NCBI RefSeq assembly: GCF_036860695.1 | Contig: NZ_JAYKGJ010000003.1 | Location: forward strand, 186,001-250,000 | Reading direction: 5' to 3' | DNA: 64,000 nt | Source: Rosettibacter firmus | Lineage (GTDB): Bacteria; Bacteroidota; Ignavibacteria; Ignavibacteriales; Melioribacteraceae | Shown: positions 1,444 to 9,172 of the stretch, piece by piece | Position numbering within the stretch: position 1 is the stretch's first letter | Layout of the letters: every line of letters starts with the position of its first letter | The notes under the pieces: generated by a model | What the model was told of the DNA's origin: nothing | The model's database searches: none | The model's input: the letters and a program-made list of their open reading frames with translations, nothing else | Translations under genes and position numbers: made by a program

Positions 1444-2169
1444 TTACCAGCTACCACTTGCACCTCCGCCGCCAAAAGACCCACCCCCACCACTAAAACC
1501 ACCAAAACCGCCACCACTGAATCCACCACCACCCCAGCCTCTACTTCTACCTCCACCCATTGATCCAATAATTAACCATGGTAATATACCACCGCTTCTT
1601 CTTCCACCACGAGATAGCAACAAAAATAATAATATCATTATTATATAAATAAATGGAAATTTAATATCGTCTTCTTCTTTATCTTTTTTGTCTCCTTTAT
1701 ATTCACCTTTAGTGGCAGAAATTATTGCATCTATACCTGCTTCTATTCCATGGAAATAATCACCTCTTTTAAAATATGGACGCACTTCATTTCTGAGAAT
1801 TGAACTAGCAAGAGCATCGGGAAGTGCACCTTCGAGACCATATCCTACTTCTATTCTCATCTTTCTATCATCTTTTACAACCAAAAAAAGAACTCCATTA
1901 TTATTTTTTGCAGTACCAATTTTATTCCGAGAAGCAACTTCATAAGCATACATTTCTATTGGATATCCATTTAGAGTTGAAATCATTAAAAAAACAATTT
2001 GATTTGATGTAGAATCGTCAAAGCTTTTTAACTTATTATTCAATAAAGAGATTTCGGATGTTTTCAAAGTAGCTGTATAATCATTAGCATAATTTTTAAG
2101 GATCGGGAATTCAACCTGAGCATTTAATGATAAAGTATAAAATAAAAAAATCAATACAAAATTTTTCAT
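1444..2169 (-). CDS. TPM-domain (YgcG-type) membrane protein with Gly-rich tail
   Basis: A 241-residue secreted, membrane-anchored protein. It has an N-terminal signal peptide (cleaved near LNAQ, residue 18), a TPM domain over about residues 25-155 with the family segment GVLFLVVKDDRKMRIEVGYG, one transmembrane helix near 170-188, and a C-terminal tail made almost entirely of Gly, Ser and aromatic residues ending in GSW. TPM proteins are usually encoded beside lemA, as here (10-bp gap), and act at the membrane in an unclear role linked to envelope or photosystem maintenance. The low-complexity tail produces spurious overlapping reading frames. It is the last gene of the minus-strand run that begins near 6.9 kb. 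Confidence 0.9.
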   Translation of the reverse strand: MKNFVLIFLFYTLSLNAQVEFPILKNYANDYTATLKTSEISLLNNKLKSFDDSTSNQIVFLMISTLNGYPIEMYAYEVASRNKIGTAKNNNGVLFLVVKDDRKMRIEVGYGLEGALPDALASSILRNEVRPYFKRGDYFHGIEAGIDAIISATKGEYKGDKKDKEEDDIKFPFIYIIMILLFLLLSRGGRRSGGILPWLIIGSMGGGRSRGWGGGGFSGGGFGGFSGGGGSFGGGGASGSW

Positions 2170-2179
2170 GATTAACTCA

Positions 2180-2785
2180 TTAGAACTGAACTTTTGGAGC
2201 TTGAGAAGCTTCTGCAGTAGCTCTGAAATATTGTTTTTCTTTAAAGCCAGTCATATTTGCAATTATTGCCGCAGGGAATCTTTTAATCTGAGTATTATAA
2301 TCCTGAACAACCTGATTAAATTTCATTCGTTCAACAGAAATTCTATTTTCTGTTCCTTCAAGTTGAGCTTGAAGCTGTAAGAAATTTTCATTTGCTTTAA
2401 GCTGTGGATAATTTTCTGCTACCACAAGTAAACGAGAAATGGCATTGCTTAATCCATCCTGTGCCTGTTGAAATTTCTGAAATGCATTTGGATCACTTAG
2501 TTGATCTGCAGTAATTCGTACTTGTCCTACTTTAGCACGAGCTTCAGTTACAGCTATATAGGTCTCTTTTTCAAAGTTAGCAACACCCTTTACAGTTTCT
2601 ACAAGATTAGGAATTAAATCATATCTTCTTTGATATTGATTTTCTACCTGACTCCAGGCTTGATTTACACTTTCGTTCAAAGATACCAATCTATTATAAA
2701 CTCCAACTCCCCAGCTAATTGTTAATAAAATTATAATTACAAAAAATGCTACTATACCAAGTGTAATAATTAAACCCTTTTTCAT
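2180..2785 (-). CDS. lemA: LemA family protein
   Basis: A 201-residue protein with one N-terminal transmembrane helix (about residues 5-27) followed by the all-helical LemA domain. The family hallmark YNRLVSLNESVNQAWSQVEN and the RRYDLIPNLVETVKG segment are both present. LemA is an inner-membrane protein with most of the chain outside the cytoplasm; its biochemical role is unknown, but it co-occurs with TPM proteins as here. The GGAGGTAAA ribosome site directly upstream supports the start. It lies 26 bp downstream of the UPF0210 gene and probably shares its transcript. Confidence 0.95.
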   Translation of the reverse strand: MKKGLIITLGIVAFFVIIILLTISWGVGVYNRLVSLNESVNQAWSQVENQYQRRYDLIPNLVETVKGVANFEKETYIAVTEARAKVGQVRITADQLSDPNAFQKFQQAQDGLSNAISRLLVVAENYPQLKANENFLQLQAQLEGTENRISVERMKFNQVVQDYNTQIKRFPAAIIANMTGFKEKQYFRATAEASQAPKVQF

Positions 2786-4299: not shown

Positions 4300-4728
4300 T
4301 TATATTCTGTGCATATATCTAAAGACATCTTCATGCTGGAGATATATTTTTATTTTTAATTGGTCAGCAACTTTTGCCATTTCGTTTTGAATTTCTTTTA
4401 AATCCTTATTTGATGTTGAAATATCAATTATCATTATCATCGTAAAAAAATCACCCATGATTCTTTGACTTAAGTCCTGAATATCACAATTAGACTCTGC
4501 TAAGGCTTTTGTAACAGCTGCTACAATACCTGGCTTATTCAAACCAAAAGATGTTAAAATTACTCTTCCCGAAGAAACTTCACCGCTTTTTAATTTCAAA
4601 TCATAATCTGACATTAATTCAATTTTCTTTTGAACAGCTTCTTTTATTTCAGAAGGTGTAGCATCTTTACCAAGTTCATTAATTGTTTCAAGGGTAATTT
4701 TTCTTATTTCTTCTTCCGTTAATTTCAT
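4300..4728 (-). CDS. ACT domain protein (UPF0237) with N-terminal extension
   Basis: A 142-residue protein. The C-terminal part, about residues 52-142, is a UPF0237-type ACT domain (VILTSFGLNKPGIVAAVTKAL, then a DIQDLSQRIMGDFFTMIMII stretch). Residues 1-50 are a helical, charged extension (EEEIRKITLETINELG...) not found in the minimal ~90-residue family members. ACT domains bind small ligands, usually amino acids, and regulate a partner; the UPF0210 protein encoded downstream is the usual partner. The start codon overlaps the stop of the preceding TPR gene by 4 bp (ATGA), implying translational coupling. Confidence 0.9.
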   Translation of the reverse strand: MKLTEEEIRKITLETINELGKDATPSEIKEAVQKKIELMSDYDLKLKSGEVSSGRVILTSFGLNKPGIVAAVTKALAESNCDIQDLSQRIMGDFFTMIMIIDISTSNKDLKEIQNEMAKVADQLKIKIYLQHEDVFRYMHRI

Positions 4729-5552
4729 GGTTTATCGCCTTTATATTCATACTGAAGATAATTTAGAACTTTATTAGAAATTGAAACATTTTTTTCAATG
4801 GCAAACTTTTCTGCATTTTGAATATTACCCCTATAAAATCTTAACCATAATAAACCACCGATTACAATTCCATCGAAAATTCTATCTTGTGAAAATGCTT
4901 TTGCAGTTAATAAGCCAAATAATATATTATAACCAAAGGACATAATGCCAGATAAATAATTTCCTGTATAAATTTGTCCTGCACCAGGTACAATATAAGA
5001 AAATACCTTTGCAAAAGTAACCGAATATTTTTCTTTTATTACTTTATCTGAAATTTTTGCTAATTCATGACCAGGTTGAAACTTTTCAAAATAATATTTT
5101 GCTCTTTCCCAATCATCACGAAAAATATATGCCCACCCACGCCAGTAGTTAAGAGAATCAAGTTTTTCATAATATTCATTCGAGTTTTCCATTTCATATA
5201 AAATTTGTAGTGCCCTTTCAGTGGTTCGGCGTAATAAGTTCGATTTAATTATTTCTATTTTGGCTTGGTACTTATCATCAGGATTTTTCGCAATTATATC
5301 AGCCATCGAAAAATATTTTATTGCATCATCAAATTTTCCACCTGCTTTATAGCACTTACCTATATTAAAATTACAAATAAATGCATAGGTTTTTGTGGTA
5401 TCAAAAAACATAAGTCTTTTGTATTCAGTAATTGCATCAAAATATTGTTCAGCTTTAAATAATGAATCTGCAAATTTCTTTTGTATTGATAAATCCTGTG
5501 CAAATATTGTTAGAATATTCAAACTCACATATAGTAAAAAAATTCTTTTCAT
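4725..5552 (-). CDS. TPR-containing membrane protein, hypothetical
   Basis: A 275-residue protein with a signal peptide (cleaved near FAQD, residue 19). TPR-like helical repeats occupy roughly residues 20-150 (e.g. FNIGKCYKAGGKFDDAIKYF). The C-terminal part, about 165-255, is hydrophobic and begins with the IVPGAGQIYTGNYLSG motif seen in small two-helix membrane domains (TM2/DUF5683-like). It is a paralogue in architecture of the next gene upstream, 3 bp away, and overlaps the ACT gene downstream by 4 bp. No enzymatic motif is visible. It may act as an envelope scaffold together with the YidD-like protein encoded two genes upstream; this is inferred from position only. Confidence 0.75.
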   Translation of the reverse strand: MKRIFLLYVSLNILTIFAQDLSIQKKFADSLFKAEQYFDAITEYKRLMFFDTTKTYAFICNFNIGKCYKAGGKFDDAIKYFSMADIIAKNPDDKYQAKIEIIKSNLLRRTTERALQILYEMENSNEYYEKLDSLNYWRGWAYIFRDDWERAKYYFEKFQPGHELAKISDKVIKEKYSVTFAKVFSYIVPGAGQIYTGNYLSGIMSFGYNILFGLLTAKAFSQDRIFDGIVIGGLLWLRFYRGNIQNAEKFAIEKNVSISNKVLNYLQYEYKGDKP

Positions 5553-5555
5553 TGA

Positions 5556-6449
5556 TTATCTCTCAATAAAATCAAAATGAGGCAAGAAGTAATTTCTTTG
5601 CTTAAAATAATTATTCATTTCATTAATAAAACTACTTTTGACTTTTGCATTATAAACTTTAGCTGCAGCAACCGAGCCATAAATATTTCCAGCATAAGTT
5701 AAAGCTGATAATCCTGCAAATAACCAGCCCCTAAATTGATGGTCATTATTAAAATTATTAACAGATAATATAGTCAGTAATCCTGTTGCTATGAACGCAG
5801 TTACTCCATCTCCAGTTTCCCCCAAGTAAATTTTACCCAGTCCAGGTAGAAATGCAGATAATATTCCTGCTGTTGTTTTACTTTTATATGGAGGATATTT
5901 TTTTAATAAATAGAATTTTTTAATAAATGTATAATTAGAATCATCAAAAGCAGAGAAAAACTTTGATGAATCTGGAAGAGGTGACTTATCAAACAAATAA
6001 GAAATAAATTTCAATCTATTAATGTATTTTGAAAATTTTTCGCTTTGATATATTTCTTTTTCAGCTATTTCTCTAAAATGAGCTAAATTATTGTTAGAGA
6101 GATTCAGGAGAAAATTTGCTCTATAAAAATTGAGTTTTGCTTCTTCTTCAAGTGTCGAATTGAAAAATAGGCTCTTAAAATTTTCTCCGCTTTCTTCAAA
6201 TCTTTCAATTCTTAAAAGACATTCTGCATACTTAAACCGCACTGTATCATTATCATAAACTTTTAAATATTCTTTATATTCTTCCAGTGCTCTCAAATAA
6301 TCTTTTTCGATAAAAAGTTGATTGGCAAATTTTAAACGATTCTCAGGTGAATTGAAAAAATTATTTAATCTCTGTCCATTGTTTATATCAAAACAAATGA
6401 GAAAGAAAAAAATTATATAGCTTATTTTTTTAAGAAAAAACAATAACAT
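5556..6449 (-). CDS. TPR-containing membrane protein, hypothetical
   Basis: A 297-residue protein with an N-terminal hydrophobic segment (residues 2-23, ending near NNGQ). TPR-like repeats lie around residues 35-170 (LRALEEYKEYLKVYDNDTV, KYAECLLRIERFEESG). The C-terminal hydrophobic region, about 195-265, contains AFLPGLGKIYLGETGDG, the same PGxGxIYxG signature as the downstream gene. The two proteins therefore look like an ancient duplication or a matched pair. It sits 48 bp after the YidD-like gene and 3 bp before its partner, consistent with one transcript. No function is assigned. Confidence 0.75.
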   Translation of the reverse strand: MLLFFLKKISYIIFFFLICFDINNGQRLNNFFNSPENRLKFANQLFIEKDYLRALEEYKEYLKVYDNDTVRFKYAECLLRIERFEESGENFKSLFFNSTLEEEAKLNFYRANFLLNLSNNNLAHFREIAEKEIYQSEKFSKYINRLKFISYLFDKSPLPDSSKFFSAFDDSNYTFIKKFYLLKKYPPYKSKTTAGILSAFLPGLGKIYLGETGDGVTAFIATGLLTILSVNNFNNDHQFRGWLFAGLSALTYAGNIYGSVAAAKVYNAKVKSSFINEMNNYFKQRNYFLPHFDFIER

Positions 6450-6497
6450 TTTAATTTATCAATGTGGGATTGGATGTGTAATTATTGATTAATTTAA

Positions 6498-6878
6498 CTA
6501 AAAATAGTTTGTAACTGGATCATATAATTTCCCATTCATTAGTTTTGGATAACCATTAATTCTCTTAAATAAATTTAATTCTCTTGTGAATCTATCTACA
6601 AAAATCAGTGTCCCTTGCAAAATATCAGTCTTTCTAACAGCTTCAATAAAAAATTCTGAACATGAAGGATTAAATGGACAATTATCTCCATCCAGATCAG
6701 ATATAAAAAAATTATAAATAGCTTTTGAAAAAGTTAACGCATCCTTCTCATTTTTTTGTGATGAATTGCTTTCATTATGGATTTTATAAGAAACAACTAC
6801 CTTATCCCACTTAATCCAGTCAGATTGTGCTTTGCATAGTGTAATGGTAAATAAAAAAACACATAAAAAATATTTCAT
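6498..6878 (-). CDS. YidD-like protein with signal peptide
   Basis: The protein has 126 residues from the ATG at 6878. A longer frame opens at 6920, but the internal Met begins a clear signal peptide (MKYFLCVFLFTITLCKAQ), so I prefer it. The C-terminal 75 residues match the YidD core: the CPFNPSCSEFFIEAV segment corresponds to the canonical C-R-x-x-P-S-C-S motif, followed by GTLIFVDRF and a terminal YDPV. Classical YidD is about 80 residues, cytoplasmic-face, and encoded between rnpA and yidC, where it assists membrane insertion. This version carries a signal peptide and stands with two TPR/membrane proteins instead. A role in outer-envelope assembly is speculation. Confidence 0.7.
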   Translation of the reverse strand: MKYFLCVFLFTITLCKAQSDWIKWDKVVVSYKIHNESNSSQKNEKDALTFSKAIYNFFISDLDGDNCPFNPSCSEFFIEAVRKTDILQGTLIFVDRFTRELNLFKRINGYPKLMNGKLYDPVTNYF

Positions 6879-7009
6879 ATATTTTTCTGTTATTTGAAAA
6901 TTGATATAACAAAATAACAAAAAGAAACATATGGTTAAATAATTAATAAATTCATCTACTTACTTTAGTAATCAAATTTTTATGCACACTTTTTTACCTT
7001 CCCATTTTT

Positions 7010-8165: not shown

Positions 8166-8702
8166 ATGCTGAACCACAGCATAATATGTTTAGTATTTCT
8201 TTTTATTCAATTATCAAATCTTTTTAGCCAATCAGATTTACAACCTGCAAAAGCAAGCACTGTTTTAATAATGCCATTTATACAAAATGAAAAATATCCT
8301 TATGCTTCTGACGAAATTCGATTTTCTCTTATAACTGGTTTTTTACAAAAAGGTTATCATGTTATTGAAGATGATTCAACCTGGAGTAAATTACTAAAAT
8401 TAAATTATAACCTGGCTAATATATCAACAGAAATAGCAGATACGATTTCAAATTATGTAAATTCAGATTTAATTGTATTTGGTAATGCAGAAAATATAAT
8501 TAATCTACGTGAATCCAGTCCTTCAAACAGACAATTAATTTATAAACCAGTATTAATTAAAGTATTTGATACACGGAGTAAGTCCATTATTTATTATGAA
8601 AGATTAAACTTAGTAGAATACTGGGGATTGTTCAAAAATATTACTCAATTAAGTGAACTTGGTTTAAGAATAGCTACGACATTAAGAAATAGAGGTTATT
8701 AA
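8166..8702 (+). CDS. Secreted hypothetical protein, TolB-N/CsgG-like
   Basis: A 178-residue protein with a signal peptide (residues 1-21, cleaved near LFSQ). The mature part has alternating strands and helices: TVLIMPF near residue 33, FLQKGYHVIEDDSTW near 60, SDLIVFGNAENI near 98, and a final helix. This layout resembles the nucleotide-independent domain seen in CsgG, LpoB or TolB N-terminal proteins, but identity is too low for assignment. It lies 75 bp after rlmN and 17 bp before a small lipoprotein-like gene. Confidence 0.65.
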   Translation: MLNHSIICLVFLFIQLSNLFSQSDLQPAKASTVLIMPFIQNEKYPYASDEIRFSLITGFLQKGYHVIEDDSTWSKLLKLNYNLANISTEIADTISNYVNSDLIVFGNAENIINLRESSPSNRQLIYKPVLIKVFDTRSKSIIYYERLNLVEYWGLFKNITQLSELGLRIATTLRNRGY

Positions 8703-8719
8703 GTAAAATAGATATAAAC

Positions 8720-9172
8720 ATGAATAAAAAAGTATTTTTATTATTGATAATTCTAATTACTAATTGCAAAGAAAGTAGTGTTACACCAGAAATAGGAGCA
8801 AAAATTTATCAACTCGATGGTTGTAGACCTATAAATAAGTTATTCAAAATGGATTTAAGTGATTCATGTTTTAGTTATAATTTTTCTGATAAATTAACAA
8901 TCGACTTCTGTGTTAGTGCAAATTGCTGTCCCGATAAAAACAGATTCTTAATTAGAAATAAAATTATAAAAGATACTATTACAATCACCATAACTGATAC
9001 TGCTGCAAACTTATGTCGCTGTATCTGTAATTACATAATTCATGGAGAATTTGAATCGTTGCAAAACGATAGTTATTATATAAAATGCATAAGGACTGAC
9101 TCTGGGGATGAAAAGCTTTTATACTTTAGAAAAATTATAAGAGCAAATAAATACAAAATTTTTTCATTTTGA
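8720..9172 (+). CDS. Cys-rich putative lipoprotein, hypothetical
   Basis: A 150-residue protein with a short hydrophobic leader ending LIILITNC, where a Cys near residue 16 could be lipidated; Asn at -1 is atypical for a lipobox. The mature chain is unusually rich in cysteine, including a paired CC within SANCCPDK and a CRCIC cluster near residue 95, suggesting disulfides in the periplasm or on the surface. I do not recognise the family. The last 9 bases overlap the end of the convergent gene on the minus strand. Confidence 0.6.
   Translation: MNKKVFLLLIILITNCKESSVTPEIGAKIYQLDGCRPINKLFKMDLSDSCFSYNFSDKLTIDFCVSANCCPDKNRFLIRNKIIKDTITITITDTAANLCRCICNYIIHGEFESLQNDSYYIKCIRTDSGDEKLLYFRKIIRANKYKIFSF

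Follow-up and report, generated by a model that had tools for sequence, protein, structure and literature searches.

Yu et al. 2011 is reportedly the primary paper cited for canonical YidD, the housekeeping protein of the PF01809/TIGR00278 family. In the excerpts available from the relevant articles, E. coli YidD assists YidC (PMC3573977) and is listed in a table as a SecYEG contact (PMC8082313), while canonical yidD sits in an rpmH-rnpA-yidD-yidC cluster (PMC10502375). The protein described here, YidD2, contains a homologous domain that extends from a helix before the C-x5-C core to a DP near the C terminus, and it scores above both profile cut-offs (40 bits for PF01809, cut-off 27; 42.5 bits for the equivalog TIGR00278, cut-off 40). 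YidD2 differs from canonical YidD in its hydrophobic, signal-like N terminus and in its length, 126 aa compared with 69 aa for the canonical copy of the same genome. It also has a DLDGD loop and, like the other exported copies of the order Ignavibacteriales, an Asp or Glu in place of the third cysteine. Its gene lies outside the rnpA-yidC cluster, and the protein falls in a separate clade.

YidD2 is encoded at 6498-6878 on the minus strand of the window, the whole 64,000-nucleotide stretch of Rosettibacter firmus DNA that was analysed. On the same strand it is followed by TpA (5556-6449, 297 aa), which combines a signal peptide with TPR-like and TM2-like regions, and by TpB (4725-5552, 275 aa), with a signal peptide, TPRs and a TM2/DUF5683-like region. 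A preliminary description of the window had placed the three open reading frames at these positions and had suggested that the trio was undescribed; no such trio was found among the titles and abstracts listed from the open-licence literature, and the Ignavibacteria signature paper (PMC9318685) makes no mention of YidD, tetratricopeptide or ‘insertion efficiency’. The intergenic gaps are 48 nt between YidD2 and TpA and 3 nt between TpA and TpB. An ACT-domain gene (4300-4728, minus strand; PRK00194, 102 bits) lies 3' of TpB and overlaps it by 4 nt, a detail missed in that description. DUF711 comes after ACT, and the ACT-domain gene is a conserved neighbour, probably outside the module. Further 3' of the trio, beyond ACT and DUF711, are a LemA gene and then a TPM-domain gene (1444-2785, minus strand; both over Pfam cut-offs), which in many relatives lie immediately 3' of TpB where ACT-DUF711 was not found. 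After RlmN there are two orphan open reading frames, signal-peptide-like and with no Pfam match (8166-8702 and 8720-9172, plus strand), each of which recurs next to RlmN in some relatives.

In TM2 and DUF5683 domains a helical hairpin comes after a PGxGxIY-type motif. TpA and TpB share this arrangement, each with an N-terminal hydrophobic signal-like stretch in addition to the PGxGxIY membrane domain. They differ from the known families in scoring below the curated cut-offs and in that a predicted exported TPR domain precedes the membrane domain. For TM2 (PF05154), TpA reached 27.5 bits against a cut-off of 27.9 and the family was not listed for TpB; for DUF5683 (PF18935), the two proteins gave 12.6 and 15.7 bits, under the cut-off of 26.7. 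The motif itself is strongly conserved. In TpA it reads PGLGKIY (5826-5846, minus strand), with P202, G203, G205 and Y208 invariant in the 36 rows of alignment A2, and in TpB it reads PGAGQIY (4968-4988, minus strand), with P189, G190 and Y195 invariant in the 36 rows of A3. The two proteins match each other with an E value of about 1e-9, in agreement with the paralogy proposed earlier. The TPRs attributed to both are evident in TpB, where TPR_6 (35.5 bits) and TPR_2 (29 bits) exceed their cut-offs, and fall short in TpA, where the ANAPC3/TPR matches are below cut-off.

The proposed two-helix membrane domain fits the confident AlphaFold2 model of TpB (pLDDT 94.6), in which a TPR solenoid is followed by two long C-terminal helices, residues 199-221 and 225-268. 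The hydropathy call (19-residue window, mean of at least 1.3), however, identified such a segment in TpA and none in TpB beyond the signal peptide. As the TpB hairpin is only weakly hydrophobic, that it enters the membrane is predicted by analogy. Compared with the PDB, the TpB model matched generic TPR proteins, including LapB (E 7e-4) and R. marinus BamD (E 9e-3). BamD and PorW/SprE are periplasm-facing TPR scaffolds with a similarly shaped solenoid, but the common repeat alone is shared with them, and the PorW/SprE model gave 22 bits against a cut-off of 250.

We searched 395 genomes of the phylum and 149 of the class with A1, the alignment of exported YidDs; among the matches listed, long strong matches were almost confined to the order. 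Module loci were found at 14 places outside it, 13 of them in other gene neighbourhoods. At three of these, YidD, TPR and TM2 are fused in a single open reading frame, of 400 aa in L105, 402 aa from the start used in L106, and 398 aa in L202. Five are trios (L103, L104, L107, L206 and L258) and six are pairs (L108, L111, L203, L205, L259 and L260); L258-L260 were found in further classes of the phylum. The locus that resembles the order, L107, has the order YidD2-TpA-TpB and the same flanks, and its source genome has 6% contamination. The fusion N termini are hydrophobic, a result of the hydropathy test for L105 and L202 and of inspection by eye for L106; export of the other outside YidDs was likewise judged by eye. 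The YidD of L205 (the same as L255:6352-6780) is under the Pfam cut-off (22.4 vs 27). Among the 12 YidD loci from outside the order in the series L103-L114, seven have the module, and L109, L110 and L112-L114 are canonical. No YidD gene adjoined four weaker TPR-TM2 matches from beyond the class (L261-L264). In plasmid records, the matches listed covered the YidD part alone, and one such record, from Aureibacter (Bacteroidota), has a 77-aa yidD without a partner.

A LolA-like or PEGA-type gene adjoins 11 of the 14 outside loci, with neither seen at L107, L108 or L260. The LolA-like gene is immediately upstream of YidD in four loci (L103, L104, L206/L253 and L258). The PEGA-type gene, whose product is lipoprotein-like by eye, is upstream of YidD in seven (L105, L106, L202, L203, L205, L111 and L259); PEGA is over the Pfam cut-off in five of these, L203 is below it, and L205 was matched by similarity to the others only. 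The module might take part in moving lipoproteins or lipids to the outer membrane, with the YidD2 platform working with the LolA-like carrier or the PEGA lipoprotein. Consistent with this, of three LolA-like proteins scanned against NCBIfam, two had LolA as their best match (E 0.019 and 0.00093). These matches, at 14.4 and 18.7 bits, were nevertheless far under the family cut-off of 112, and the LolA assignment is weak. The L103 protein reached 13.6 in Pfam against a cut-off of 23.6, the L258 protein had no NCBIfam match and its best Pfam match was to another family, below cut-off, and the L206 protein had no Pfam match. When PDB sequences were searched with a profile of four LolA-like proteins, LolA was not among the matches up to E 10. 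Moreover, the upstream regions inspected in Ignavibacteriales showed neither gene type beside the trio, and we consider this traffic role unlikely.

Other genes near the outside loci were recorded. A small protein family is encoded 5' of the LolA-like gene at three loci, in two families (L103:1456-1869, L104:5814-6215 and L253:8133-8657), and the two members scanned had no usable Pfam or NCBIfam match. The upstream genes of L105 and L111, and TpB of the window, gave weak matches to the Leptospira-gene families LEPBI_I2678, LB_137 and LIC12587. The sub-cut-off matches of TpB and the neighbouring PEGA proteins to the LB_137 and LEPBI_I2678 families are a hint that related modules may occur in spirochaetes. 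Among the titles listed for LB_137 and similar names, nothing concerned a YidD-TPR-TM2 module.

Within the order, 97 genomes were compared, that of R. firmus included. YidD2 was found in 90 of the 97, TpA also in 90 (one cut by a contig end), and a strong TpB orthologue in 89; in G035, the 90th, a contig end cuts TpB. All three genes are missing from the same set of seven genomes (G006, G020, G038, G048, G064, G066 and G081). The trio is dispensable, as G064, G066 and G081 lack it though 98-99% complete. This count of 90 with and seven without overstates independence, and joint absence is weak evidence alone because adjacent genes can go in one deletion. The three-gene order, whose conservation the preliminary description proposed to check, was observed in 42/44 loci drawn from the 90 genomes with YidD2, the exceptions being G077 and G095. 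It was also present in 73/80 loci of a second set, the best 80 of 103 found, 24 of which have a YidD2 already counted in the first; these loci come from Melioribacter, Ignavibacterium, Stygiobacter, other Ignavibacteriales or unplaced Bacteroidota-type genomes. The trio is present, for instance, in L190 from Stygiobacter electus. The remainder of the second set consists of six contigs that end too soon and one relocation (L163). Of the nine failures overall, L048 and L163 are broken and seven did not have the 1.9 kb of downstream sequence that was required, with one of the seven, L035 (from G077), truly dispersed. L143, counted among the 73, has a 712-aa open reading frame on the opposite strand between TpA and TpB. 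In most loci neighbouring genes of the trio abut or overlap, with median gaps of -1 or -4 nt and of -4 nt, values that rest on mechanical ORF starts and are biased towards overlap.

One alternative is that the trio is simply a block of neighbours inherited together with no joint function. The wider neighbourhood (RlmN, acyl-CoA dehydrogenase, ACT-DUF711 and LemA-TPM) is conserved as well, and flanking genes remain in four of the seven genomes without the trio (G006, G020, G064 and G081). Among these, ACT is kept in G006 and G020, an unrelated 91-aa open reading frame occupies the trio site in G020, and ACT-DUF711 is missing too in G064 and G081; in G066 LemA has different neighbours, and the contig of G048 is too short to tell. 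Against a passive block stand the fusions, the recurrence of pairs and trios where the surrounding genes are unrelated, and the retention of all three genes after dispersal, inside three different contigs in G077 and with YidD2 apart from TpA-TpB in G095. The YidD-TPR-TM2 fusions in particular largely refute this explanation, which we regard as very improbable. It is instead highly likely that YidD2, TpA and TpB form a module with a joint function.

Two further associations were rejected. A functional link of the trio to its flanks (ACT-DUF711, LemA-TPM, RlmN and acyl-CoA dehydrogenase) is unlikely, as these stay in the four trio-less genomes. Of the outside loci compared, L107 was the only one where the flanks of the order were found; an acyl-CoA dehydrogenase homologue near L259 is in an unrelated context. 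A link to the T9SS was dismissed because SprA is over its cut-off in all seven trio-less genomes (95/97 overall).

The signal peptide reported for the YidD-like protein was borne out by simple sequence rules (hydropathy and cleavage-site pattern). The N terminus, MKYFLCVFLF...CKAQ, contains a short hydrophobic stretch and ends CKA|Q; the predicted type I signal peptide is MKYFLCVFLFTITLCKA followed by Q (6828-6878, minus strand). In A1, a 12-aa hydrophobic core is present in 37/37 rows of exported YidDs, a -3/-1/+1-like pattern in 34/37, and the Gln at the predicted +1 position is invariant in all 37. From these features, export of the YidD2 module is very probable. A1 and the YidD2 model used 6498-6881, and residue numbers are thus +1 relative to the ATG at 6878. 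The canonical SPL..P loop is replaced in the exported YidDs of this order by the DLDGD motif (6684-6698, minus strand), as judged from A1 and an alignment with canonical copies; in this region S61 and D64 are invariant, and D62, G65 and D66 are conserved in at least 90% of rows. The conserved core CPFNPSCSEF (6651-6680, minus strand) retains two cysteines, and C68, F70, P72, C74, S75 and F77 are invariant in the 37 rows. The helix before this core is weakly amphipathic: 10/44 exported and 1/33 canonical copies beat shuffles (p < 0.05).

The conserved Asp and Arg residues of the exported YidDs (D64, D96, R97, R100 and D121 in A1) could also be read as belonging to a secreted lytic or enzymatic protein, for which TpA and TpB would be accessory or immunity proteins; the former name of the Pfam family, given in the available part of PMC3573977, was ‘haemolytic domain’. 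A single copy in 90/97 genomes is unlike a toxin, as is the fusion of YidD with a TPR protein anchored in the membrane, and we give this possibility very little weight. The fold search neither supports nor opposes it. The model of YidD2 is of fair quality (pLDDT 79.5, pTM 0.51, with block means of at least 85 from about residue 71 onward) and had no usable match among solved folds (best Foldseek E 3.2; best Z 3.2), and the family profile gave one match to PDB sequences, at E 2.2.

A second, canonical yidD near rnpA, the absence of which would have marked YidD2 as the housekeeping gene, is present in the same genome (69 aa; G000:C4:57219-57410), between rnpA/rpmH and yidC, with all of these genes Pfam-confirmed. 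Although YidD2 passes the YidD profile cut-offs, this canonical copy and the separate clade refute the idea of a housekeeping yidD whose N terminus has diverged, which is left with practically no probability. A YidD match is present in 96/97 genomes of the order, R. firmus included, and most have two. In G070 a third match comes from an extra 71-aa YidD-domain open reading frame (L072, G070:C113, 2987-3202), near a large open reading frame that is restriction/methylase-like by eye, and a mobile element is possible there.

In a tree of the YidD domain, 33 canonical copies separate from 44 exported copies with support of 0.981 and no intruders. The tree rests on a short domain, and was built without L203, L205 and L206 (core outside the pattern), L107 and L115-L119 (absent from A1), and L258-L260 (fetched later). 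The third YidD cysteine, in the RC after the helix, is present in 33/33 canonical copies and in 0/37 exported copies of Ignavibacteriales, where the position is Asp in 36 and Glu in one, the copy in the window; this substitution had escaped the preliminary description. The cysteine is retained in the three fusions and in two other exported (f7) copies, and its pattern was not found in the pairs L108 and L111. This distribution makes the loss of the third cysteine in exported YidDs look secondary.

We favour, at somewhat less than even probability, a dedicated periplasm-facing inner-membrane envelope module in which TpA and TpB hold YidD2 and aid the assembly or release of envelope proteins. 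All three proteins would be secreted by Sec, as suggested by their signal peptides. The TM2-like hairpin would anchor TpA and TpB in the inner membrane and leave their TPR solenoids on the periplasmic side, and together the two proteins may form a platform that seats YidD2 at the periplasmic membrane face; the natural YidD-TPR-TM2 fusions suggest such a platform. YidD2 would then do outside what canonical YidD does inside, helping envelope proteins that have just been translocated or inserted with their folding, their assembly or their release from the membrane. Points that count against this reading are the fold search with YidD2, which gave no usable match and hence no tie to a mechanism, the weak hydrophobicity of the TpB hairpin, the weakly amphipathic helix before the YidD core, the sub-cut-off YidD of L205 and the dispensability of the trio. 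Lipoproteins are plausible clients, given the LolA-like and PEGA neighbours outside the order. The assembly or insertion role is proposed from the domain content, predicted export, fusions and recurrent envelope-type neighbours, and is put forward tentatively. Slightly more tentative is the suggestion that the YidD domain was recruited within the phylum, once or repeatedly, into a periplasmic-side membrane-assembly complex that takes the form of a trio, a pair or a single chain.

The trio is predicted to be a widespread envelope module of the Ignavibacteriales, one in which an NCBIfam model would simply name YidD2 ‘YidD’, as its score is over the cut-off. An exported, partner-bound YidD whose partner is named by natural fusions would offer a direct handle on the action of this domain at the membrane, and suggests that the domain does not have to work alongside YidC in the cytoplasm. 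The weak matches to Leptospira families, below cut-off, leave room for the module beyond the phylum. If the proposed recruitment is true, YidD would be a general interfacial assembly module for either membrane face, beyond its part as a YidC accessory.
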